DNA of 50,534 nucleotides, from positions 1 to 50,534 of the IMG/VR virus record IMGVR_UViG_3300027734_000106. One strand, 5' to 3'. Under the pieces are notes generated by a model. The model ran no database searches and had not been told where the DNA came from. It saw only the letters and a program-made list of their open reading frames with translations. Positions 2,987 to 33,993 of the stretch are shown here, in pieces. Source of the DNA: a virus. The translations under genes were made by a program, and so were the position numbers. Position 1 is the stretch's first letter. Each line of letters begins with the position of its first letter.

Positions 2987-3376
2987 TTACTCGGTAATTT
3001 CAGTTACAGACATTTCTTCTGCGACTGGTGTAGCTTTAACTTTCTTGGCAACTGCAACTTCTGGTGCCTTCAAGTCAGCCAATGTTGATACAGGAACAAA
3101 ACCTGCATCTAACACACCAACACGCTTCATGTAGTCTTTCACTTCAGCCACATTGATTAGTTGATAGCCTGATACTTTACGGCCATCTTTAACCACTTTG
3201 ATAATGCCATTGGCATTAGTTTTGATATGCCACATATATGTGGAAATACGGTACATTTGAATTTCTTTGCCAAGCAAAGTTTCAATCTGTTCTTTACTAA
3301 CTTGCTTACCAGAAATCATTACTGTCAATAATTTCTGAAAGGGTTTCAACTTCATTTTTTTAGCAGCTTTTGCCAT
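2987..3376 (-). CDS. Hypothetical basic protein, possible DNA-binding
   Basis: 129 residues from the start chosen here (MAKAAKKMKLKPFQK). A GGAG Shine-Dalgarno sequence lies 9 bases before this ATG; an ATG 15 bases upstream overlaps that GGAG and is unlikely. The N-terminus is Lys-rich. The middle (VSKEQIETLLGKEI, YRISTYMWHIK, VSGYQLIN) looks like a small winged-helix-type fold. The C-terminal tail is Val/Ala/Glu-rich and probably disordered. It is the only gene directly behind the promoter at 3413-3441. Confidence 0.6.
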   Translation of the reverse strand: MAKAAKKMKLKPFQKLLTVMISGKQVSKEQIETLLGKEIQMYRISTYMWHIKTNANGIIKVVKDGRKVSGYQLINVAEVKDYMKRVGVLDAGFVPVSTLADLKAPEVAVAKKVKATPVAEEMSVTEITE

Positions 3377-3412
3377 AATATAAATCTCCATTTATCAATT
3401 TAACGAACAACC

Positions 3413-3464
3413 ATTGTAACACAAAAAGGCGAACTTGTCAAGAGGCATCGCCCATGTTTGCCTC
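3413..3464 (-). promoter_or_regulatory. Early promoter plus stem-loop (PeSL-like)
   Basis: Minus strand: TTGACA (3436-3441), 17-base spacer, TACAAT (3413-3418), a near-perfect sigma70 promoter. Directly upstream is a hairpin, GAGGCA (3442-3447) pairing with TGCCTC (3459-3464), overlapping the stop of the preceding gene. Predicted transcription start is about 30 bases before the gene at 3376. Confidence 0.75.
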
Positions 3465-3855
3465 ATTCAGTCACCTCATCGTAACAAAATGACATAAATT
3501 CTTCATAAGAACCTTCGAAAATCACTTCGGTAGGATTCTTCACAACCAATTTATCTGCATAGATGTGGTATTCATACTCTTGCCAGCAATCCATATCAGA
3601 TTCAATTGCGTAAATATAAAAACCACCAGGTGATTTTTTGAAATGCACAATCATCTGAGCTGCCAAGCAACCCATACCATTTGCAAAACTAAACAACTCT
3701 GGCGAACCAGAGATTCCATTTCCAACCGTCATCTGTGTTAAGAATTCCGACAACTCAACACCGTGACCTGACGGATAGCCGTCAAACTGGCGATACATAC
3801 AAATGATTGGCTTTTCCAAATCATCATACACATAGGTTAAACTTCTAGTTCCCAT
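3463..3855 (-). CDS. Conserved phage protein (MGTRSLT type)
   Basis: 130 residues beginning MGTRSLTYVYDD. It carries QFDGYPSGHG, a Gly-rich segment, FYIYAIESDMD and a Tyr/Glu-rich C-terminus. I recall this start motif from many phage hypotheticals, but no function is known to me. No membrane segment. It is last in its operon; its stop lies in the stem-loop of the next promoter. The start overlaps the upstream stop as TAATG. Confidence 0.7.
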   Translation of the reverse strand: MGTRSLTYVYDDLEKPIICMYRQFDGYPSGHGVELSEFLTQMTVGNGISGSPELFSFANGMGCLAAQMIVHFKKSPGGFYIYAIESDMDCWQEYEYHIYADKLVVKNPTEVIFEGSYEEFMSFCYDEVTE

Positions 3856-4034
3856 TATTCATTTTCTCCATCATTAGAATAAACTTCTTTATAGATTGTT
3901 TTGATGAATTCTTTTGGATATTCATCTTCACAATATTCCAACACATCTTCAACTTCATAAAAACTTACATAAATGGTTTTACCAGATTGAAATTCAACCA
4001 TGTAAACATTTTCTACATCAAAATCAAAGCTCAT
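3855..4034 (-). CDS. Small acidic hypothetical protein
   Basis: 59 residues, MSFDFDVENVYMVEF, then GKTIYVSFYEVED and an acidic, aromatic C-terminus. Predicted to be a small beta-alpha protein. Coupled to the next gene by a TAATG overlap. No family recognised. Confidence 0.7.
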   Translation of the reverse strand: MSFDFDVENVYMVEFQSGKTIYVSFYEVEDVLEYCEDEYPKEFIKTIYKEVYSNDGENE

Positions 4035-4049
4035 TAAAACTCCAAAATC

Positions 4050-4283
4050 TTAATAATTATAAACTGAAAATGCTTTTGCATCTTGTTTTAAACAAGTGCT
4101 TGCTTTACTCATAAAGCTACGATAACGAGCGGACGGCACATTGAAGCGGGGACCACGATATCGTATTTTGAAAAACTTACCTTGTTTTGCCATTTCACTT
4201 CTGAATTCATCAAGAAATTCAATAGGCACTCGGTGGTAAATTGCACAAACACCAGATTTTCTAAACTGTTCAAGATTAATCAT
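4050..4283 (-). CDS. Small basic hypothetical protein
   Basis: 77 residues with a basic C-terminal half (KIRYRGPRFNVPSARYR, STCLKQDAKAF). The pattern of Arg/Lys/Tyr suggests nucleic acid contact, but I recognise no domain. The start ATG overlaps the stop of the 38-residue membrane peptide upstream. Confidence 0.65.
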   Translation of the reverse strand: MINLEQFRKSGVCAIYHRVPIEFLDEFRSEMAKQGKFFKIRYRGPRFNVPSARYRSFMSKASTCLKQDAKAFSVYNY

Positions 4284-4396
4284 AATAAAATTATTGCCTT
4301 TAAAAATACAAAACTAAACATAGCCATTATTAATACTGGTGTTAATAGATAAATTATTAACATTATCAACGCTACACATATTAAAAATTTAACCAT
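4280..4396 (-). CDS. Small single-pass membrane protein
   Basis: 38 residues, almost entirely hydrophobic after MVKF (LICVALIMLIIYLL, then LIMAMFSFVFLKAIILL). It starts inside the last codons of 4389-4565 and stops in an ATGA overlap with 4283. The double coupling supports translation. Function unknown. Confidence 0.5.
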   Translation of the reverse strand: MVKFLICVALIMLIIYLLTPVLIMAMFSFVFLKAIILL

Positions 4397-4565
4397 AATC
4401 CACCATCAATTCTTCGATTTCAACAAATTCATCTTCAATATCATCAGGAATTTGTTTTGCAACAACCGCATGATAAGCCTCAGCATCTTCTAAATCAGCA
4501 AACGCTTTAAGATTAACATACCCATTTTCGGGACCAAATGATTTTACAATATAAACAACTTTCAT
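4389..4565 (-). CDS. Small acidic hypothetical protein
   Basis: 58 residues, MKVVYIVKSFGPENG, then an Ala/Glu helix (LEDAEAYHAVVAKQI) and an acidic tail (DDIEDEFVEIEEL). The start was chosen because the ATG follows the upstream stop by one base; a longer in-frame extension would run into that gene. The beta-then-helix layout is common among small phage proteins of unknown function. Confidence 0.65.
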   Translation of the reverse strand: MKVVYIVKSFGPENGYVNLKAFADLEDAEAYHAVVAKQIPDDIEDEFVEIEELMVDYG

Positions 4566-4566
4566 T

Positions 4567-4797
4567 TTAATTCCAATCTTTCTTATCACCAAACTGTTCA
4601 TTCCAAAAATAACCTGCCATATATTCACCAATTTCGGATTCTGTCAAAGCAGTAATTTTTTCACTTGACAAGGTATCACCAACATAATAGTGTGGCTCAA
4701 TACCACGATGGTAATAACTATCAGCTGAACCTCTATCAAAACAACCGCCGTGCCTTGTATCAAATAATTCACGGTCTTTATAACTAGTAAATTTCAT
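4567..4797 (-). CDS. Conserved phage protein with DRGSADSYYHR motif
   Basis: 76 residues. The central motif CFDRGSADSYYHR followed by PHYYVG is, as I recall, characteristic of a small phage protein family found across many tailed phages. A C-terminal helix (ESEIGEYMAGYFW) follows. No function is known to me. Start overlaps the stop of the GP88-like gene at 4797. Confidence 0.7.
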   Translation of the reverse strand: MKFTSYKDRELFDTRHGGCFDRGSADSYYHRGIEPHYYVGDTLSSEKITALTESEIGEYMAGYFWNEQFGDKKDWN

Positions 4798-5549
4798 TAA
4801 GCTGCCACTTTCATCATAATAGAAGGATACTTAACAAAACCAGTTTCGTCTTTTTTTGCTTTGCCTTTAGCATACAAGCCAACGATAACTTGTTTTGGAT
4901 CCAAAAATCTTAAATCGCTTTCATCACCATTAAATACTGGCAAACCAAGATAACTATCAGGCATTGGCAAAGTCTTTTTAATACCAAATACCACAGCAAT
5001 ATTATAACCTTGGTCTATTGCTTTAAATACATCCGTATCATTACCATCAGCAGCACTAAAGGTAAGAGAGTAATTAGCAATGTCCGCCACTTTACGGCCA
5101 AGCACCTTAGTATAATCATAAAAAACAACATTAGGAAAAGCGTCAAATATATTGCGATATAATTTCCCATTTCGGATGACTTCATATTTTTCCCATGATA
5201 AGTCGGATGTGCCGTTTAAACGGAAAACAGGAACTAAATGCAAACGAAGCGATTGCTTGATAGCTAATTCAATATCTTTAACCAACCATTCCATAAAACC
5301 TGCTCGTTCTTCAAAAAACATTTGTGTTTTGCGAATTCTAGCTTGTTGAATTGTATTTGTATTTTCGCCTTTTTTAAACATACCGCCACGACCAGCAGTA
5401 TTAAGACAAGCAGCTGTGCAACCAGTAGTCCGCTTTGGACAGGTTTCATAACCTGATAAATTAGCGGGCGCTAAATGTAGAATATAAGTGTTATATCCTT
5501 GTTTAATGCCTTTTAATACTTTTGGGTTACCAGTGCTTAACAACTTCAT
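4797..5549 (-). CDS. GP88-like phage protein
   Basis: 250 residues. Features match the GP88 phage family: LAPANLSGYETCPKRT near residue 27, a Cys cluster (TCPKRTTGCTAACL), an Arg-rich helix (QQARIRKTQMFFEERAGF), and the strong motif FRLNGTSDLSWE. The Cys set suggests a bound metal or Fe-S cluster; biochemical role is not known. First gene behind the promoter at 5582-5609, with a 5' leader of about 26 bases. Confidence 0.75.
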   Translation of the reverse strand: MKLLSTGNPKVLKGIKQGYNTYILHLAPANLSGYETCPKRTTGCTAACLNTAGRGGMFKKGENTNTIQQARIRKTQMFFEERAGFMEWLVKDIELAIKQSLRLHLVPVFRLNGTSDLSWEKYEVIRNGKLYRNIFDAFPNVVFYDYTKVLGRKVADIANYSLTFSAADGNDTDVFKAIDQGYNIAVVFGIKKTLPMPDSYLGLPVFNGDESDLRFLDPKQVIVGLYAKGKAKKDETGFVKYPSIMMKVAA

Positions 5550-5581
5550 AATTTACTTCCTTTATCAACTCAACAAAGTCC

Positions 5582-5652
5582 ATTATACACGAACCAAGGC
5601 AATTGTCAAGGGCTTTACCGACTTTTTTTGGTTTTGTTGTTTCCACGCAACA
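5582..5652 (-). promoter_or_regulatory. Early promoter plus stem-loop (PeSL-like)
   Basis: TTGACA (5604-5609), 16-base spacer, TATAAT (5582-5587) on the minus strand. Upstream lies a TGTTG/CAACA hairpin (5635-5639 with 5648-5652) whose loop (TTTCCACG on the plus strand) recurs almost unchanged in the cassette at 20842-20894. Confidence 0.75.
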
Positions 5653-5683
5653 CTCCAGTAAGCTCTTGATTCCATTGACTTTT

Positions 5684-6049
5684 TTACCTACGCATTTTAG
5701 CCTGATCCAGAGCGTCTTCCGCATTGAATATCGGAACTGCATTGGACTTGTGGAGAGTACCTATCCCTAGCATTTTGTCGCCTGTATAGACTTTGCCATG
5801 AACTGGTTTTGTGCAACTGCCTCCGTGCGTTTCCATAGACGGATAATATGGTGTTTCCCGAATATAAACTTTTGGAGATAATACAGATAATCCATTATCA
5901 ATATTAACTTTTTTACCACGGCTAAAATTGGTCTTAATACTATTAATACTATTAAGCCATTCATTATATTCTTCAGCTTTTCGAGCCAATTTCTTTTTTC
6001 TCTGCTCTCTTAATTTTTTAGGAGAGCGATTATTAGCATAGATAATCAT
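5684..6049 (-). CDS. Conserved phage protein (VYTGDKMLGIGT)
   Basis: 121 residues. A basic N-terminal helix (SPKKLREQRKKKLARKAEEY) is followed by a C-terminal region with VYTGDKMLGIGTLHKSN, VPIF and DQAKMRR. I recall the C-terminal block as widely conserved among phage hypotheticals. No function known. Start overlaps the SWIM protein stop by 4 bases. Confidence 0.7.
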   Translation of the reverse strand: MIIYANNRSPKKLREQRKKKLARKAEEYNEWLNSINSIKTNFSRGKKVNIDNGLSVLSPKVYIRETPYYPSMETHGGSCTKPVHGKVYTGDKMLGIGTLHKSNAVPIFNAEDALDQAKMRR

Positions 6050-6429
6050 AGTTTAGATTTTACAGCTTCAATATGTTTACATTTACCACGATAACCATAA
6101 CCGATACAAGTGCAAGATAATTTAGCACCATTAACTTCGATTTTATAATCGTGATTGCCAGATATTACTTTAAATATACGAATACCAGATTTTGGACTAT
6201 AATCATGTCCTTCATCTTTTGGTATTAACTTAGATAATCCTTCGTGATTAATTTTGATAAACTTGCGATATCGTTTATCCAATTTAATACGGGATTTTAA
6301 TTGATTAATAGCAGTATCGCCTTGCTTAATGTAGGCAATAATATTACTATTATTATCTAGTAAATAGATATGATTTGATACTGGAAAATCTGCGTTCCAG
6401 ATTGTAGTTTCTTGTAGAATTTCACTCAT
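6046..6429 (-). CDS. SWIM zinc-finger protein
   Basis: 127 residues. The C-terminus (residues about 95-120) has the SWIM pattern C-x-C...C-x-H: LSCTCIGYGYRGKCKHIEA. SWIM fingers bind zinc and contact DNA or proteins. The N-terminal 90 residues are an alpha/beta region I do not recognise. The ATG lies only about 8 bases after the -10 hexamer of the promoter at 6437-6464, so transcripts from it would be leaderless or nearly so; a GGAGG sequence overlaps the predicted start point. Confidence 0.7.
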   Translation of the reverse strand: MSEILQETTIWNADFPVSNHIYLLDNNSNIIAYIKQGDTAINQLKSRIKLDKRYRKFIKINHEGLSKLIPKDEGHDYSPKSGIRIFKVISGNHDYKIEVNGAKLSCTCIGYGYRGKCKHIEAVKSKL

Positions 6430-6436
6430 AGCCTCC

Positions 6437-6489
6437 AGTATAACAGAACTGGAGTGGATGTCAAGGGCTGCTGTTGTTTTTAAGCAACA
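6437..6489 (-). promoter_or_regulatory. Early promoter plus stem-loop (PeSL-like)
   Basis: TTGACA (6459-6464), 16-base spacer, TATACT (6437-6442) on the minus strand, with a TGTTG/CAACA hairpin upstream (6472-6476 with 6485-6489). The promoter sits immediately before the ATG at 6429. Confidence 0.7.
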
Positions 6490-6657
6490 CTACCCTTTTA
6501 GTAATTGTTGCCCTTCATCCTGTTCTCGGATATCTTCCTCAAACGCTTGCAATTTCAATCGGTTGATTTCATTCTGCAAAGCAACATTCATTGTTGCGCC
6601 ATGTTCTAATTGTTTTTCAAGCATCTCAATACGCTTGTCAATATCTTTAACTGACAT
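6490..6657 (-). CDS. Small coiled-coil protein
   Basis: 55 residues, nearly all heptad-like helix: MSVKDIDKRIEMLEKQLEH, then MNVALQNEINRLKLQAFEED and a charged tail. Likely a dimeric coiled coil. It overlaps its upstream neighbour by 11 bases in another frame and ends next to the stem-loop at 6472-6489. Function unknown. Confidence 0.6.
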   Translation of the reverse strand: MSVKDIDKRIEMLEKQLEHGATMNVALQNEINRLKLQAFEEDIREQDEGQQLLKG

Positions 6658-6796
6658 CTTTTTGCTCCCGTCTTAGCATACGATATAGGGCTTTATCGTT
6701 GTGCTTGTTGCGAAACTGTTTGAATGTTTCCCTATCTTCGTTTTTTTTGAATTTGGATTTTTGAGATTTTTCAAATTTCCGACCGCCGCCAATCAT
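6647..6796 (-). CDS. Small basic hypothetical protein
   Basis: 49 residues, strongly Lys/Arg-rich (FEKSQKSKFKKNEDRETFKQ, then FRNKHNDKALYRMLRRE). Probably nucleic acid or ribosome associated, but nothing specific is visible. It lies between clpP (8-base gap) and the coiled-coil gene. Confidence 0.55.
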   Translation of the reverse strand: MIGGGRKFEKSQKSKFKKNEDRETFKQFRNKHNDKALYRMLRREQKDVS

Positions 6797-6804
6797 TTTG
6801 TTAC

Positions 6805-7398
6805 CTATTCTAAAATATGGTCTGCCACACCAAATTCAACCATTTCTTCAGCCGACAGATAAACATCGGAGGGGCCTAGAAGTTTTGTTCTGACTTTGGC
6901 TCGTGGTAGTCCTGTGGTTTCTACCAAAACACGAATCATTCTTTCATTAAGAGATTCACTCTCTTTCATGGCAGATTTGATATCATGGTATTTGCTATCC
7001 ATAGAATCGGTAAATTGGTGACACATACCGCTGGTATTTTTAGAAACATACCTGTGACCTTTATCGCCTGCGGAGAATATCAGAAAAGCCGAACTCATCA
7101 CATTACCAATACCGATAGTGCGAACAACAAATTTAGAACTTTTTATAATATCAATCAAGGCAAAGGCATCTGTTAGACTGCCGCCTGTTGAATTGATATA
7201 GAGGGTTAACATTTTATCAGCGTTGGATGTATCCATGTTTTCATAGAGCAACCAACGAATAGCCTTATCAACCGTTTCATCATTAATATCACCCGTAATC
7301 ATATGGGTGTGTTCTTTTAATAATCCGAGATTGATAATATCCTCGGCATCAATTACCGATTCGTCAAATTTTCTTGTCATACTCTTTATGCCACTCAT
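6805..7398 (-). CDS. clpP: ClpP-like serine protease
   Basis: 197 residues, the usual ClpP length. The catalytic triad can be placed: Ser102 in GNVMSSAF, His127 in MCHQF exactly 25 residues later as in E. coli ClpP, and Asp178 in GPSDVYLS. Conserved LYINSTGGS and AFALIDII are present. ClpP forms a barrel peptidase that degrades proteins fed by an ATPase; no Clp ATPase is in the window, so it may use the host's or act on virion precursors. The ATG used overlaps galE by 35 bases; a second ATG at 7380 would overlap by 17. Confidence 0.85.
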   Translation of the reverse strand: MSGIKSMTRKFDESVIDAEDIINLGLLKEHTHMITGDINDETVDKAIRWLLYENMDTSNADKMLTLYINSTGGSLTDAFALIDIIKSSKFVVRTIGIGNVMSSAFLIFSAGDKGHRYVSKNTSGMCHQFTDSMDSKYHDIKSAMKESESLNERMIRVLVETTGLPRAKVRTKLLGPSDVYLSAEEMVEFGVADHILE

Positions 7399-8308
7399 AA
7401 GCTGTTTTCAATATTGATAGTATATCATGTTTTGGGCGGTAATTCAATACTTTTTGAGCAAGAGTAATATCGGCAACCAACTGGTCGGGGTCACCTTGCC
7501 GTCTTGCCTTTACTTTGTATTTTACAGGTAATCCTAATTCATCGGTAATGAGGTTAATAATCTCATAATTGGAATGCCCTTTTCCTGTACCTAAATTTAA
7601 TAGCTGAGATTCGCCACCATTCATCAGGTATTCAACTCCTGAAATGTGTGCCTCAGCAACATCGGAAACATGGACATAATCACGGATACACGAGCCATCT
7701 GGTGTATCATAGTCATCACCGTATAATTCAAAACTATTTAGATTTTGAAGGATTCTAGGAATCAGATGGGTTTCTGGTGAATGGTTTTCACCAATATCGT
7801 TATCTGGATCAGCACCAGCCAAATTAAAGTATCGGAAAATGATATGCTTAATACCAGAGTCCTCGATAGCGTTTTCGGCAGCGTGCTTGCTACTGCCATA
7901 AACATGATTATTAAGGACTGCCTCGGTTTCACTAATCAATCGTTTACTTGGCCAATACACTCCTGCGGTAGAAGAATATATGATGTATTCCACACCATAA
8001 TGCTTCATACAGTTTAGAACCATACAGGTGCCTGCGACATTGACTTCCCAAAATTCTGTTGGGTCTTTCATGGACTCACCAACTTCGATTCTGCCTGCTA
8101 AGTGAAACACCGCATCAATCTTATGGTGAAAGAATACACCATCAAGCTCTTGTCGGTCACGGACATCACAGAATTCAAATATGTCCCAATATTGGTGCTC
8201 AGGATGTTTTATGTCCAGACCAATTACTTTCCAACCATTCTTTCTGAGATACTTACAGAGGTGACTTCCAAGATAACCAGAAGCGCCAGTAACTAATGCC
8301 GTTTTCAT
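7364..8308 (-). CDS. galE: UDP-glucose 4-epimerase (SDR family)
   Basis: 314 residues. N-terminal NAD-binding Rossmann motif GASGYLGS (8-15), HLAGRIEVGES, catalytic Ser in YSSTAGVYW (about 112-114) and Y137-x3-K141 (YGSSK). C-terminal substrate domain has FRYFNLAGADP, RDYVHVSDVAEAH and LNLGTGKGHSN, typical of GalE. It interconverts UDP-glucose and UDP-galactose, feeding sugar donors; the next gene is a glycosyltransferase overlapping by 4 bases. The pair suggests that host surface glycan, phage DNA or virion is glycosylated. GalE relatives acting on other UDP-sugars cannot be excluded. Confidence 0.85.
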   Translation of the reverse strand: MKTALVTGASGYLGSHLCKYLRKNGWKVIGLDIKHPEHQYWDIFEFCDVRDRQELDGVFFHHKIDAVFHLAGRIEVGESMKDPTEFWEVNVAGTCMVLNCMKHYGVEYIIYSSTAGVYWPSKRLISETEAVLNNHVYGSSKHAAENAIEDSGIKHIIFRYFNLAGADPDNDIGENHSPETHLIPRILQNLNSFELYGDDYDTPDGSCIRDYVHVSDVAEAHISGVEYLMNGGESQLLNLGTGKGHSNYEIINLITDELGLPVKYKVKARRQGDPDQLVADITLAQKVLNYRPKHDILSILKTAYEWHKEYDKKI

Positions 8309-13345: not shown

Positions 13346-13375
13346 GATAATGCCTTTCTTTATTAATGAATAACC

Positions 13376-13434
13376 ATTATAACACATCCATGGTAAAAGT
13401 AAAGCCCCCTGTTGCGTAAAAACAACAGGGGGCT
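13376..13434 (-). promoter_or_regulatory. Terminator hairpin with promoter (PeSL-like)
   Basis: A perfect 12-base-pair hairpin (13403-13414 with 13423-13434, loop of 8) ends the tRNA-Cys transcript; the minus-strand 3' side continues TTTACTTTT. The same bases carry the next promoter: TATAAT at 13376-13381 and a weak -35 (TTTACT) near 13398-13403. It has the longest stem of the cassettes in this window. Confidence 0.75.
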
Positions 13435-13455: not shown

Positions 13456-13532
13456 TGGAGTGGGTGACAGGAGTTGAACCTGCATAAAACGGATTTGCAA
13501 TCCATCGCCTAACCATTCAGCAGCACACCCAC
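13456..13532 (-). tRNA. tRNA-Cys (GCA)
   Basis: 77 bases with encoded CCA. Acceptor stem GTGGGTG/CACCCAC is perfect, T-arm GCAGG-TTCAACT-CCTGT and an anticodon loop TTGCAAA reading GCA. The D stem is short (three pairs). It follows the rubredoxin gene by 7 bases and is followed by the strong hairpin at 13403-13434. Confidence 0.9.
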
Positions 13533-13539
13533 ACAATAA

Positions 13540-13668
13540 TTACATTTCGGTGTAATCTTCTTTACCACATCCACATTCTGGACATTCAAAATCCTCTGGT
13601 AAAGTTTCCCATTTACCTTCAGTTACTTCATCGTGGACATGGCCACAAACTATACAAATATGTTCCAT
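13540..13668 (-). CDS. Rubredoxin-like protein
   Basis: 42 residues. The iron-binding rubredoxin knuckles are clear: CIVCG (Cys5, Cys8) and CPECG (Cys29, Cys32), with LPEDFECPECG matching the classical LPDDWxCPxCG. It is about 10 residues shorter than typical rubredoxin, lost in the middle loop. Rubredoxins carry one electron via a Cys4 iron. It begins in a TAATG overlap with the rubrerythrin-like gene, so the two are made together, and it is the plausible electron donor. Confidence 0.85.
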   Translation of the reverse strand: MEHICIVCGHVHDEVTEGKWETLPEDFECPECGCGKEDYTEM

Positions 13669-14117
13669 TATAGTTTCTCCAATTGTTTCTTGTAAGCGTT
13701 AGCGTGCTTTTCTTCTACTCTTTTTAAAGCAGAGAATCTCTTTTCAGCTTTAACAAGTAATTCTTGGAATTGTTCAGCGTGAACTTTAGATTCATCAATG
13801 TTATCTTTGATTTCTTTTAACCATTGTTGATGACCTTCCATTCTAGCTTGTAATTCAAACTTAGGATACATTGTGGTAAATTCATATGTTTCACCTTCAA
13901 TCGCCAATTCAAGGCAACGCTTAGTGCTTGGTTTACCTACTAGCAATTCTAAATGACCCCATGCGTGGAGAATTTCTTGGTCGGCTGTGTGTTCAAAGTG
14001 TTTTGCAATATCTTCAAAACCTTCCGCACGAGCAAGTTTAGCAAAATACCGATATTTGATATGTGCCATTGATTCGCCAGCCAAGGCGCTTTGTAAATTT
14101 TCTAAAGTTGTATCCAT
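13668..14117 (-). CDS. Rubrerythrin-like diiron protein
   Basis: 149 residues, a four-helix ferritin-like domain. Candidate iron ligands are E15 (LAGESMAH), E48 with H51 (QEILHAWGH), E76/E79 (EGETYEF), E88 and H113/E115. The LAIEGETYEFTTMYP segment is typical of rubrerythrins. The usual C-terminal rubredoxin domain is absent but encoded as the coupled next gene. Family members reduce hydrogen peroxide in the cytoplasm. A promoter with TATAAT lies about 37 bases upstream. Confidence 0.85.
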   Translation of the reverse strand: MDTTLENLQSALAGESMAHIKYRYFAKLARAEGFEDIAKHFEHTADQEILHAWGHLELLVGKPSTKRCLELAIEGETYEFTTMYPKFELQARMEGHQQWLKEIKDNIDESKVHAEQFQELLVKAEKRFSALKRVEEKHANAYKKQLEKL

Positions 14118-14153
14118 GATTTCCTATATTTTTGAAGAGGCATTATAATAACC

Positions 14154-14185
14154 ATTATACACTAATTTACCGATTAATGTGGCAA
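14154..14185 (-). promoter_or_regulatory. Promoter candidate, TTGCCA-N20-TATAAT
   Basis: TATAAT (14154-14159, minus strand) precedes the rubrerythrin gene with a leader of about 30 bases. No -35 at 17 bases, but TTGCCA lies exactly 20 bases upstream (14180-14185), a spacing shared with 18913-18944 and 27074-27105. The 118-base gap 14118-14235 holds nothing else I can see. Confidence 0.5.
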
Positions 14186-24486: not shown

Positions 24487-24659
24487 TCTTGTGCCTTTAT
24501 TACTGTTGCTTTTAAATCCATCACAATATTTTCTAACAAGCATAATCGGTCGTGTTGCTGGCGTAGCATGATGGCAGAAGCTTTAATCCATTTTTCCTCG
24601 TAATCCACATCATCTTGTGTAAAAGCAATAAGCCACTCAGCTAGTTCATTTGCGTTCAT
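24483..24659 (-). CDS. Small helical protein (58 residues)
   Basis: MNANELAEWLIAFTQDDVDY then EEKWIKASAIMLRQQHDRLC and LLENIVMDLKATVIK. Two amphipathic helices, a type common in phage operons. Overlaps neighbours as ATGA. Confidence 0.6.
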   Translation of the reverse strand: MNANELAEWLIAFTQDDVDYEEKWIKASAIMLRQQHDRLCLLENIVMDLKATVIKAQE

Positions 24660-25219
24660 AGTTTCTTTATCAGTATAATCTTCTTGTTTTCACCTGTAGG
24701 CTTAACAAATAGTTCTTTCAATTGTTCACCAGTATTCCACTTCATAGAGGAACTCTTGTGCTTGGGTAGACCAGCGGTTTCGCCAATTCTTGACCAGTTA
24801 TCGGCAAGATAGACTGCACCATTCTTACCTGCACCAACAAAAGTAATGATGTAACCTAAGTCATCACCATATTTTGCCTTCCATGCATCTGGCGCCTTCT
24901 GTCGCAACTGTTTCAATATCTGACTACCACCGTTCTTTATGGATTGTATCATACAAAAGCGCCAATTGTTGGCAATAGTGTTGAAGATTGCCTTGTAGTC
25001 ATTTTTACTGACAGCAAGGTAATTGAGTATATCTTTGGGGGGTGGGTAGACCGATGAGCCAATGCCTATCATGCCAACTGTTTGCCCATCGTAATTGATG
25101 AGCCAATCAATACGGCGACCAACTGAGGCATTGGTCGGTACATAAGAGTGGTGGTTCTCAATGATATATTTTACTAGGCCTTTTTGGTCTGGCCTAGTAA
25201 CTTCAACTAGTTCAATCAT
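24656..25219 (-). CDS. DUF4338/DruA-like protein
   Basis: 187 residues. The segment NTIANNWRFCMIQSIKN, GSQILKQLRQ, DAWKAKYGDDL, ITFVGAGKNGAVYLADNW and GETAGLP fits the DUF4338 core (N-x-RF, aS-x-iL, W-x-x-x-Y, TFV, G-x-x-Y-x-A-x-NW, G-x-T-x-G). The N-terminal HHSYVPT, VGRRIDWLI, GQTVGMIGIGSS is acetyltransferase-like. DUF4338 is found in DruA of the Druantia defence system; this is stand-alone and smaller. Possible roles are DNA or nucleotide modification or counter-defence. The match is by eye. Confidence 0.6.
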   Translation of the reverse strand: MIELVEVTRPDQKGLVKYIIENHHSYVPTNASVGRRIDWLINYDGQTVGMIGIGSSVYPPPKDILNYLAVSKNDYKAIFNTIANNWRFCMIQSIKNGGSQILKQLRQKAPDAWKAKYGDDLGYIITFVGAGKNGAVYLADNWSRIGETAGLPKHKSSSMKWNTGEQLKELFVKPTGENKKIILIKKL

Positions 25220-30158: not shown

Positions 30159-30863
30159 TTATTCTCTGTTGATTTTTGCTAACTTCAAATAACTTAGTGT
30201 TTTAATCCAAAACCATCCAATGTCCAATTCAAACCATTTTTCAGATAGTTTTGCACTTGCTGGTTTATTGTGATGGTTGTTATGTAGTTCTTCACCACCA
30301 ATAATCAAACCTATTGGTACAATGTTTTTGGATGTATCATTCGTTTCTGTGTTACGATAACCCCAATAATGGCCAATACCATTGACCACACCTGCGGCCC
30401 ACAATGGGATCCAAATCATTTGAATTCCCCATGTGAGTAAACCCCACCAAGAAAAACAAAGTAAATTTATTAGTAATAACAAAGTAATACCTAGACGAGA
30501 ATGTTTACTGTATATATTCTTCTCAACCCAATCGTCAGGCGTTCCTTTGCCATATGTTTCAACCATCAATTTATCTTTTGATGCTTTATGATATAGAACT
30601 GCACCACCAAATAATACACGCCAAATACCAAATACTTTTGGTGAATGTGGGTCACCATGTTGGTCGGTCATTTGATGGTGCTTGCGGTGTATAGCAACCC
30701 ATTGCTTTGTGACCATGCCTGTTGTAAGCCATAGCCAAAATCGCATGATGTTTTCTATTACAGGATTAAATGTTACTGCTCGGTGTGCTTGGCTACGATG
30801 TAAATACATTGTAACACAAAGAATGGTAATGTGTGTCATTACCAATGTGTAGAGAATTAACAT
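30159..30863 (-). CDS. Fatty acid (acyl) desaturase
   Basis: 234 residues from the ATG in the TAATG overlap with nrdB. Histidine boxes of diiron desaturases: HRSQAH (22-27), HRKHH (59-63) and HNNHH (194-198). Four hydrophobic segments surround them. It introduces a double bond into acyl chains in the inner membrane, which would alter host membrane fluidity. Shorter than bacterial Delta-9 desaturases (about 300), missing mainly C-terminal residues. Likely taken from a bacterial host. Confidence 0.8.
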   Translation of the reverse strand: MLILYTLVMTHITILCVTMYLHRSQAHRAVTFNPVIENIMRFWLWLTTGMVTKQWVAIHRKHHQMTDQHGDPHSPKVFGIWRVLFGGAVLYHKASKDKLMVETYGKGTPDDWVEKNIYSKHSRLGITLLLLINLLCFSWWGLLTWGIQMIWIPLWAAGVVNGIGHYWGYRNTETNDTSKNIVPIGLIIGGEELHNNHHNKPASAKLSEKWFELDIGWFWIKTLSYLKLAKINRE

Positions 30864-31855
30864 TAGGCGGCTCTGCCCCATACATCGTCCCAAGAACCAC
30901 TCAATGCGCCTTTAGCGTAATCAGTAGCACGGTTCTCAAAGAAGTTTGTGTGAGTAGGTGCGTTAATCATTTCTTCAACCCATGGCAGAGGGTTGCGTTT
31001 TACTTTAAAAATGCCTTTCATGCCAAGGCCAATCAGTCTGCGGTCAGCTATATATCGGATATACTTTTTAACTTCTTCAGCACTCAGGCCTTCCATCTCT
31101 GTTACACCAAAGGCAAGGTCAATAAACTTATCTTCAAGTTCAACCATCTTTTCTGCAATTGCATAGATGGACGATTTCAATTCATCATTCCAAATTTCTG
31201 TATTCTCGTGGATGTAGGTCTTAAACAACTTCATCATTGATTCAGCGTGCATGGTTTCATCAACAATAGACCATGTAACAATCTGACCCATGCCTTTCAT
31301 TTTACCCATGCGAGGGAAATTAAGTAACATAATGAATGAGCTGAACAACTGCATACCTTCTGTAAAGGCACTAAACACGGCAATATGTCGTGCTGTATTT
31401 TCTTTGGTGCCATTCTTATCTGAAATGTCAAGCACATAATCGTGTTTGTCTTTCATCTCCTGATATTCCATAAAATCATTATAGGTTGTATCAGGCAAAC
31501 CTAATGTTTCAATCAGGTGTGAGTAAGCAGCAATATGTAATGCTTCACGAGCAGCAAAGCCCATGAGCATCATTCTTACTTCAGGTTGCGGGAAATAAGG
31601 TAGATAATTGCGAACATAACCGCCAGCAACGTCAATATCTCCTTGTGTGAAGAATCTAAAAATGTGTGTGAGAAATTGTTTTTCTTCAGCGGTGAGTTTC
31701 TTTTTCCAATCTTTGACATCTTCAAGCATAGGAACTTCCGTATGCAGCCAATGAGATTGTTCGTGTTTAAGCCAAGCATCGTATGCCCATGGATAGTTAA
31801 AGGGTTTAAAACTGTTGCGTGTATCTGTTAATTTTGATTCTGATTTTTTAGTCAT
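30863..31855 (-). CDS. nrdB: Ribonucleotide reductase, class Ia small subunit
   Basis: 330 residues. Diiron ligands can be placed: TQGDID near 70-75, E104 and H107 in REALHIAAYSHL, E170-region QLFSS, and DETMHAES. Tyr111 in AAYSHL fits the radical tyrosine. Together with NrdA it reduces ribonucleotides to deoxyribonucleotides. Separated from nrdA by the Fe-S assembly genes and others; the C-terminus ends DVWGRAA. Confidence 0.9.
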   Translation of the reverse strand: MTKKSESKLTDTRNSFKPFNYPWAYDAWLKHEQSHWLHTEVPMLEDVKDWKKKLTAEEKQFLTHIFRFFTQGDIDVAGGYVRNYLPYFPQPEVRMMLMGFAAREALHIAAYSHLIETLGLPDTTYNDFMEYQEMKDKHDYVLDISDKNGTKENTARHIAVFSAFTEGMQLFSSFIMLLNFPRMGKMKGMGQIVTWSIVDETMHAESMMKLFKTYIHENTEIWNDELKSSIYAIAEKMVELEDKFIDLAFGVTEMEGLSAEEVKKYIRYIADRRLIGLGMKGIFKVKRNPLPWVEEMINAPTHTNFFENRATDYAKGALSGSWDDVWGRAA

Positions 31856-32640: not shown

Positions 32641-33279
32641 TTAATCAAATTTTACTTCATACATAAATGTATCTGTATCTCCTAATGCCCATTTTGATTC
32701 TGTTTCAACCGACCATCGTTTAGTTGCAACTTTAAAATCAGGCACTTTTAATTCTTTTGGATTACTACTCGGCTCCAATACTAACATACGATTGTTTGGC
32801 TGTGCGGCAAACTGACCGTTGTCTAGTTTAACAAAGTTATATGATTTGTGGTCGGTCACATCTTCACTAAATCCCGTGTCTATGATATTGAAATCAGGAT
32901 GTGCCGAATCAACTGTAAACATATATTCACCAAATGCCCAATCACCATTTTTCATTTTAATCTGACACTTCATAGATTGCAATTGAGCTTTCTTTATGAC
33001 TGTAATATCATATGATAAACAATCCCACAATTGCAAACTATCTAATGAATATGGTTCACCTTCAATGGGTTTCCAACAAAATGCGTGTAACGGTAATTTA
33101 TCATATAATGCACCATATTCATTCAAATAGGCCTCGATACGAAATGCCTGACCTCTTAATGATTTGATACTAATCCACCAACAAGGCACAAATTCTCCAT
33201 GACCCTTTTCAAAGTCATAGAGAAACTCTTTGCGAATGTAACAATTTACTGGTGGTAAATTTGCAACAATATGTGCCAT
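32641..33279 (-). CDS. Conserved T4-like phage protein
   Basis: 212 residues from the ATG in a TAATG overlap with the A-type carrier. MAHIVANLPPVNCYIRKEFL, GHGEFVPCWWISIKSL, GALYDKLPLHAFCWK and LWDCLSYDI are long conserved stretches seen in marine T4-like phages. Rich in aromatic residues and Cys. Function unknown; its location between Fe-S genes and nrdB is noteworthy. Confidence 0.7.
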   Translation of the reverse strand: MAHIVANLPPVNCYIRKEFLYDFEKGHGEFVPCWWISIKSLRGQAFRIEAYLNEYGALYDKLPLHAFCWKPIEGEPYSLDSLQLWDCLSYDITVIKKAQLQSMKCQIKMKNGDWAFGEYMFTVDSAHPDFNIIDTGFSEDVTDHKSYNFVKLDNGQFAAQPNNRMLVLEPSSNPKELKVPDFKVATKRWSVETESKWALGDTDTFMYEVKFD

Positions 33280-33605
33280 TAAAATGCTACCGATGAACCA
33301 CAACCACAAGTTGATTTAACCTCAGGATTAGTTATGACAAATTGTGAATTGAATTTTTCATCTTTGTAATCTAAAGTAGCTCCCATTAAATATTGTGCTG
33401 ACATTGAATCAACAAACACTTTAATGGAATCTTTTTCAATCACAAAATCATCTTCTTCTTGTTTGTCATCAAAGGTAAATTCATATTGAAAACCTGAACA
33501 CCCACCGCCTCTTACTGACATTCTTAATGCCAAATTATCGTTATCTTTTTCTTCAACAATTAAATCTCTAATTTTATTGAAAGCACTATCTGTTACAGTA
33601 ATCAT
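33279..33605 (-). CDS. A-type Fe-S carrier (IscA/ErpA/SufA family)
   Basis: 108 residues, the usual length. The three conserved cysteines are Cys36 (RGGGCSGFQY) and Cys100/Cys102 (STCGCGSSVAF). The carrier takes Fe-S clusters from IscU and delivers them to target apoproteins. One base after the iscU-like gene, so the two are co-expressed. I cannot decide between ErpA and IscA. Confidence 0.9.
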   Translation of the reverse strand: MITVTDSAFNKIRDLIVEEKDNDNLALRMSVRGGGCSGFQYEFTFDDKQEEDDFVIEKDSIKVFVDSMSAQYLMGATLDYKDEKFNSQFVITNPEVKSTCGCGSSVAF

Positions 33606-33606
33606 T

Positions 33607-33993
33607 TTATACCTTACATAAACATTTAAGTTCGTAATCTTTTATTGCTGCCTTAATAGCATCTTCCGCAAGGATACTACAATGGATTTTAACCGGCGGG
33701 AGACTGAGCTCCTCTGCAATTTCAGCATTCTTAATTGATCCAGCTTGCTCCAGCGTTTTACCCTTGACCCATTCTGTGACGAGCGAACTACTCGCAATCG
33801 CCGACCCACACCCATATGTTTTGAATTTTGCATCTGTAATAATTCCATCTTTGACTTTAATTTGGAGTTTCATTACATCGCCACAAGCAGGTGCCCCCAC
33901 CATACCTGTGCCAACATTTTCATCAGTAGAATCCATTTTACCAACGTTGCGTGGATTTTCGTAATGGTTTAATACTTTATCTGAATATGCCAT
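33607..33993 (-). CDS. iscU: IscU Fe-S cluster scaffold
   Basis: 128 residues, full length. Cys37 with Asp39 (PACGDVMKLQ), Cys62 (TYGCGSAIASSS) and Cys105 (PVKIHCSILAED) are the cluster ligands, and LPPVK is the chaperone HscA recognition motif. C-terminal CLCKV. No cysteine desulfurase (IscS) or chaperone is in the window, so host proteins must complete the pathway. Lies one base after nrdA. Confidence 0.9.
   Translation of the reverse strand: MAYSDKVLNHYENPRNVGKMDSTDENVGTGMVGAPACGDVMKLQIKVKDGIITDAKFKTYGCGSAIASSSLVTEWVKGKTLEQAGSIKNAEIAEELSLPPVKIHCSILAEDAIKAAIKDYELKCLCKV

Follow-up and report, generated by a model that had tools for sequence, protein, structure and literature searches.

A linked rubrerythrin-rubredoxin gene pair of uncultured phages, probably the terminal part of a host-fed peroxide reductase

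The window, i.e. the whole stretch of viral DNA analysed here, comprises 50,534 nucleotides (IMG/VR record IMGVR_UViG_3300027734_000106). On its minus strand, two ORFs encode a rubrerythrin (Rbr) of 149 aa and a stand-alone rubredoxin (Rd) of 42 aa, at exactly the positions and with the TAATG overlap given in the preliminary description of this DNA. The genes and their surrounding signals are arranged as follows.

14147..14159, minus strand: candidate promoter element TATAATGGTTATT, a 13-mer containing a TATAAT box, upstream of rbr
13668..14117, minus strand: rbr, ORF for a single-domain rubrerythrin of 149 aa, apparently of the cyanobacterial type with a helix C-D insertion (PF02915; sulerythrin and B. 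pseudomallei Rbr by sequence and fold)
13666..13670, minus strand: TAATG stop-start overlap of rbr and rd, seen in the sequence and indicative of translational coupling
13540..13668, minus strand: rd, ORF for a stand-alone short-loop rubredoxin of 42 aa, C5-x2-C8...C29-x2-C32 (PF00301)
13456..13530, minus strand: tRNA-Cys(GCA), directly 3' of rd (ARAGORN, Rfam RF00005)
13403..13434, minus strand: intrinsic terminator after rbr-rd-tRNA-Cys, with a 13-bp stem containing 8 GC
13369..13381, minus strand: exact second copy of the 13-mer TATAATGGTTATT, upstream of the next gene

The pair sits among tRNA genes, and a GGAG sequence is located just 5' of the rd start codon. The adjoining tRNA-Cys had likewise been described correctly and, since it and then a strong terminator follow the pair on the same strand, a single transcription unit seems to end with rbr-rd-tRNA-Cys. 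The promoter that had been attributed to the pair was not confirmed, as a search of the rbr strand upstream of the gene revealed no sigma-70 promoter pair. The 13-mer TATAATGGTTATT, which recurs exactly once in the window, is a candidate phage promoter.

Profile searches of the kind proposed in the preliminary description identified both families. Rbr matched Pfam Rubrerythrin PF02915 with 62.6 bits (cut-off 22.8, E=6.8e-17) and Rd matched Pfam Rubredoxin PF00301 with 31.2 bits (cut-off 23, E=2.3e-7), while the score of Rbr against the NCBIfam rubrerythrin equivalog NF045767, at 73.8 bits, fell short of the 200 bits that this model requires. No rubredoxin motif was detected within the 149 aa of Rbr, in line with its description as a rubrerythrin without a rubredoxin domain. 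The cysteines of Rd (C5, C8, C29 and C32), which form two CxxCG motifs, were invariant in 32 sequences. The CxxC motifs are separated by 20 residues in the window Rd, as in 53 of 75 phage Rds, with a further 18 displaying a spacing of 17 residues. The partner Rds of bacterial relatives have a 29-residue spacing, and this standard value (~29) of 52-54-aa rubredoxins is not reached in nearly all phage forms. Short natural rubredoxins of 45-46 aa do exist (6nw0 and 6rxn).

All five Glu and both His expected as ligands in a rubrerythrin are present in the phage Rbr. The codons of the predicted ligands, and the insertion that distinguishes the protein from canonical rubrerythrins, are located as follows.

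14073..14075, minus strand: E15, predicted diiron ligand in helix A, invariant in alignments A1 and A3
13965..13976, minus strand: E48xxH51, predicted diiron ligands in helix B, E48 invariant and H51 at least 90% conserved
13881..13892, minus strand: E76xxE79, predicted diiron ligands in helix C, invariant
13758..13838, minus strand: ~26-residue insertion (residues ~94-120) that makes up the tip of the C-D helical hairpin, not in canonical rubrerythrins
13704..13715, minus strand: E135xxH138, predicted diiron ligands in helix D, invariant, placed by AF2 model 2 and superposition

Six of the seven predicted ligands were thus invariant across phage and bacterial members, H51 being the exception. 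Conserved residues were also observed in the hairpin tip (E102, E109-S110 and H113), for which pLDDT values of 64-80 were obtained. Canonical rubrerythrins align to only about the first 120 positions of the phage Rbr, which, compared with B. pseudomallei Rbr (4DI0), possesses a shorter B-C loop and ~26 additional residues.

Two readings of helix D were compared: either it is formed by E109-S110-x-x-H113 and an extra helix is present, or it carries E135xxH138 after an extended hairpin. According to the former, the bridging Glu has been replaced by Ser and the protein would be a degenerate diiron protein, inactive or altered as an enzyme; sulerythrin profile alignments, in which the insertion is lacking, match this segment with the canonical helix D and place Ser110 at the position of the bridging Glu, AF2 model 1 also suggested that this Glu is lost, and S110 is invariant. 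However, model 1, which was based on close relatives only (pLDDT 81, pTM 0.45), did not extend the C-D hairpin and superposed on solved rubrerythrins at about 10.7 Å. Model 2, to which bacterial relatives were added (pLDDT 91, pTM 0.75), predicted helices at residues 3-31, 35-60, 65-105 and 108-148 with E135xxH138 in helix D, and its superposition on the solved structures of B. pseudomallei Rbr and sulerythrin gave values of about 2.1-2.3 Å in most cases (2.1-2.2 Å where contrasted with model 1), with a TM of up to 0.80 of the target. Furthermore, neither E135 nor H138 varies among the phage and bacterial members, and ExxH is kept in aligned cyanobacterial ones. Because the better model places E135xxH138 in helix D and superposes on solved rubrerythrins, these two residues were taken as ligands, so that the predicted diiron set consists of E15, E48, H51, E76, E79, E135 and H138. 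Loss of the bridging Glu to Ser110 is disfavoured by the same model and superposition, and a degenerate protein appears improbable.

Loss of iron ligands, which had been raised as an argument against the pair, was looked for, and the Rbr ligands as well as all Rd cysteines were found to be intact. Assignment to a ferritin-like family had been raised in the same way; the best fold and sequence matches are rubrerythrins, ferritins matching the Rbr model far more weakly (E>0.02, TM about 0.38).

To establish how widely the pair occurs, IMG/VR was scanned, the viral status of relatives being as called in that resource. The Rbr scan yielded at least 592 confirmed relatives and an independent Rd scan 568; the viral locus sets comprised about 80 loci each, mostly the closest to the query. 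Among the 80 best Rbr loci, Rd was located downstream on the same strand in all 79 that were uncut, at a distance of <250 bp in 78 and of about 416 bp in one, and the junction of the two genes was a TAATG 1-nt overlap in 54 of these loci and ATGA in 20. Conversely, Rbr was present in 76 of 76 new loci found from Rd. In a third, less biased set, selected by DNA pattern and not by closeness, linkage was observed in 75 of 75 loci, five more being cut by the contig end. Rbr is under purifying selection, with a median pN of 0.18 versus a pS of 0.71 among relatives, and a dN of 0.14 and dS of 1.03 between the window Rbr and that of locus L003. Since pN of Rbr is far below pS in relatives that keep both genes, and since the genes are linked in every contig of sufficient length, the gene pair is confirmed as real and beyond chance.

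In many of 38 longer contigs, the pair was situated between T4-like gp45, gp44, gp62 and regA (often together with Hsp20) and the DNA polymerase gp43, where we presumed the gp numbers from the names given by PHROGs (clamp, clamp loader, translation repressor and polymerase). This setting bears on whether the pair might represent cellular contamination or an assembly artefact, as could be supposed from the presence of relatives in bacterial chromosomes. Such an explanation is very hard to credit, given that this region of the window is reproduced by an IMG/VR contig at 99.96% over 10,267 bp, that phage Rbrs are 70-81% identical to the window Rbr versus 54-62% for proteobacterial ones, and that phage Rds are distinctively short.

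Neither Rbr nor Rd matched PHROGs, no match at E<=0.001 was returned from the BFVD viral structure library, and no cultured phage with the Rbr-Rd pair was found in the collection searched. Rbr matches in the phage-record collection were confined to seven records, six of them faecal contigs without annotation and the seventh that of Pelagibacter phage Mosig, Rd matched one other faecal contig, and a plasmid search produced only an 80-base match. Annotators would overlook the pair, given that it occurs neither in PHROGs or BFVD nor in the records of cultured phages that were searched. No report of a phage Rbr-Rd pair was found in the literature covered, outside which most subscription-journal papers lay; it contains isolated mentions, one of a rubrerythrin from a silage virus and another of a rubredoxin-type protein encoded by Vibrio phages. 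The suggestion that such modules are rarely noted therefore holds for this literature and not for environmental phages, where the survey proposed in the preliminary description revealed hundreds of uncultured viral contigs that carry the same pair.

A scan of bacterial genomes identified 33 loci that encode family members, either complete or truncated, from Gallionellaceae, Sideroxydans, Nitrosomonadales, gammaproteobacteria, Myxococcales and others, with Rbrs that are 52-62% identical to the window Rbr over the full length. Rd adjoins Rbr in all 31 loci that are neither cut off nor broken, and these partner Rds are mostly of standard length (54-58 aa). The bacterial operon has a third gene, for a flavoprotein (rubredoxin reductase) in which Pyr_redox_2 is combined with PF18113, a rubredoxin-binding domain, and homologues of it are present in 22 of the 33 loci. 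In one locus (L084, 6450-8577), a ferritin-like gene comes after rbr, rd and the reductase gene, and a regulator of the LysR type is encoded upstream on the opposite strand. A 7-kb Rhodobacteraceae contig (L098, 139-1293) contains a phage-like Rbr N-terminus that continues in frame into unrelated sequence, and is possibly a chimeric assembly.

Scores across 398 genomes of the phylum of the proteobacterial relatives were bimodal: ten genomes, all with an Rd nearby, reached 199-245 bits over the whole model, and the remainder scored <=108 bits over the first ~120 positions only. Two further genomes with separate rbr and rd genes (about 200-208 bits) were found among 194 genomes of the Vampirovibrio phylum, in which a group scoring 130-150 bits consisted of single chains of ~230-240 aa with a fused Rd. 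A fused Rd was observed in 27 of 30 loci of the cyanobacterial-phylum search, with a spacing of 29 in those examined. In group 5 as published, the 'cyanobacterial-type' rubrerythrins (Cardenas et al. 2016, PMC5114695), proteins from proteobacteria have a single domain and those from cyanobacteria carry a long-spaced Rd in the same chain. The relatives found here fit that pattern, the proteobacterial Rbrs (L082-L114) being single-domain.

The phage Rbr itself would, judging from its sequence, also belong to group 5 and not to the classical or 'aerobic' type, an assignment made by matching its features with the published description of the group. It was set apart from canonical sequences at 99 SH-aLRT, has full-length cyanobacterial matches (positions 1-145, 130-150 bits) and has the S..HA and ExxHAxxY segments in common with them. 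The view of the protein as a usual rubrerythrin minus its rubredoxin domain consequently needs to be revised in favour of a cyanobacterial-type protein that has an insertion between helices C and D and whose relatives work with an Rd that is either separate or fused and long-spaced. An origin by fission from a classical rubrerythrin with two domains was rejected, because bacterial relatives already have separate, standard Rds and because Rbr differs by the C-D insertion.

One of the bacterial copies is of the phage type. A Vampirovibrio MAG (L093, 1.49-Mb contig) carries a chromosomal Rbr with 73% identity and a 45-aa Rd, the pair being located beside a peroxiredoxin gene with ThyX and Fe/Mn-SOD nearby (3082-7829). 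An EcoRI-like methylase/GmrSD-HNH endonuclease pair is also present beside it. In the tree, the 30 phage Rbrs grouped together with weak support, two label changes being needed, and the Vampirovibrio copy was nested among the phages (SH-aLRT 86, quick tree). This nesting, in a weak tree, suggests transfer of the pair from a phage to a bacterium, into an oxidative-stress locus.

The two proteins probably constitute the terminal part of a rubredoxin-dependent H2O2 reductase fed by a host reductase. Single electrons would reach the phage Rd from a flavoprotein of the host that uses NAD(P)H, either rubredoxin reductase or ferredoxin-NADP reductase, and Rd would hand them on to the diiron centre of the phage Rbr, where H2O2 would be reduced to water. 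Both proteins would be produced together during infection by translational coupling and therefore, as we propose, would keep peroxide low in the infected cell while phage iron enzymes are made, such as class I ribonucleotide reductase and Fe-S assembly proteins, among others. The genes, their coupled arrangement, the conserved ligands, the predicted fold, the linkage and the selection are observed here, and the peroxidase activity, electron source and benefit to the phage are what we infer. The position of the phage-type Vampirovibrio pair beside peroxiredoxin and near Fe/Mn-SOD is consistent with a role in peroxide removal. No Pyr_redox_2 (PF07992) protein above the cut-off was found in 23 phage records, arguing against a phage-encoded reductase and for an electron chain that depends on the host. 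As to the usual two-part H2O2-reducing system claimed earlier, the two-part pair is the best-supported explanation in view of ligands, fold, linkage and the bacterial reductase, whereas it is neither of the usual type nor a complete system.

The main doubt concerns the electron donor. Anabaena RbrA, a cyanobacterial rubrerythrin whose sequence we infer to belong to the cyanobacterial-type group, is an NADPH/FNR-dependent peroxidase, and FNR reportedly reduces its diiron domain directly, bypassing its Rd centre (PMC6616624), which implies that Rd is perhaps not an obligatory donor; the single-domain Fpx of Hydrogenobacter is also NADPH-FNR dependent (PMC3317640). Rbr might then be a peroxidase that takes its electrons straight from FNR or ferredoxin of the host, with Rd as an auxiliary or alternative donor or serving another reaction. 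We regard this as unlikely though worth serious consideration, since Rd follows Rbr in every viral and bacterial relative with enough flank and the reductase of the bacterial operons carries a rubredoxin-binding domain, both of which argue that Rd is used. Rd may act as donor for the phage desaturase or NrdB, but these possible users co-occur with the pair only in part (11 and 15 of 23 records, respectively).

Other genes of the window specify NrdA/NrdB, IscU, an Fe-S carrier of the A type and a desaturase, all potentially peroxide-sensitive or iron-using. The gene for the A-type carrier (PF01521) adjoins that for IscU/NifU_N (PF01592, 8e-53) beside nrdA (33279-33993, minus strand), and NifU_N was found in 11 of 38 other phage records with the pair. 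The desaturase (30159-30893, minus strand) is a fatty-acid desaturase-like protein (PF00487), a membrane diiron enzyme, its count of records including the window. Elsewhere, a 187-aa protein (24656-25219, minus strand) matches the Druantia DruA Pfam model (3.7e-11), which is odd in a phage. Such a gene content, like the ferritin gene downstream in the bacterial relative L084, could be taken to mean that Rbr is a ferritin-like iron oxidase or buffer that supplies NrdB, the IscU and A-type carriers and the desaturase, and is no peroxide scavenger. However, the best matches of Rbr are rubrerythrins, its invariant partner is an electron carrier and, with NifU_N in only 11 of the 38 records (many of them fragments), there is no sign of the pair tracking Fe-S assembly genes; an iron buffer is thus a distinctly improbable alternative to the peroxidase.

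As far as we are aware, non-heme peroxidases have received hardly any attention in work on how phages counter oxidative stress within infected cells. The pair is strictly linked, under purifying selection and recurs in hundreds of viral contigs at the least, in many of them within the core T4-like replication cluster. It offers a compact system for asking whether a phage-borne peroxide sink aids replication under H2O2 and which host reductase is borrowed. With its shortened Rd and extended C-D hairpin, it is also a natural experiment on rubredoxin docking in cyanobacterial-type rubrerythrins. More speculatively, with the odds against it, uncultured T4-like phages could possess in this pair a peroxide-defence module that has gone unrecognised despite being very widespread. 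In this scenario, the bacterial rbr-rd-reductase operon would have been simplified to two proteins and Rd shortened, and the conserved C-D hairpin (E102, E109-S110 and H113) would form a docking site through which the short Rd could relay electrons from any host flavoprotein reductase.

Among named systems, cyanobacterial-type rubrerythrins (group 5, PMC5114695) are of the same family as the phage Rbr by full-length match (130-150 bits over the 146-position model), with ligand motifs and the C-D insertion with its (E/D)S..HA segment in common. They are single chains with a fused, 29-spaced Rd, whereas the phage system consists of two chains with a shortened Rd and a shorter B-C loop. The rbr-rd(-rubredoxin reductase) operon of proteobacteria and myxobacteria (Sideroxydans, Gallionellaceae, Sedimenticola and others; L082-L114) has the same gene order as the phage, but includes a normal Rd of 54-58 aa and, in most loci, the reductase, compared with a short Rd and no reductase in the phage.

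Aerobic-type rubrerythrins (sulerythrin, ferriperoxin and B. pseudomallei Rbr 4DI0) resemble the phage protein in their diiron four-helix fold without an Rd domain. However, they lack the C-D insertion, have a longer B-C loop and usually no Rd neighbour in the loci examined, and their profile scores are <=108 bits versus >=199 for family members. The DUF3501 and RFO genes that neighbour aerobic-type rubrerythrins do not appear among the annotated genes of the window. Classical two-domain rubrerythrins (D. vulgaris 1B71 and P. furiosus 1NNQ) have the diiron plus FeS4 peroxidase logic in common with the pair, but their Rd is fused, with a Cys spacing of 10-14 residues, and the C-D insertion is absent, in contrast to the separate phage Rd with its 20-residue spacing.

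Among phages, the rubrerythrin of Pelagibacter phage Mosig (QOI69103) is, as here, a single-domain Rbr in a T4-like phage, although it is 40% identical, of the aerobic type, and without the insertion or an Rd neighbour. Vibrio phage R21Y also encodes a protein of rubredoxin-type fold, for which the parts of its description available to us suggest a role in counteracting ROS (PMC10671443) and, unlike the window pair, describe no rubrerythrin partner.
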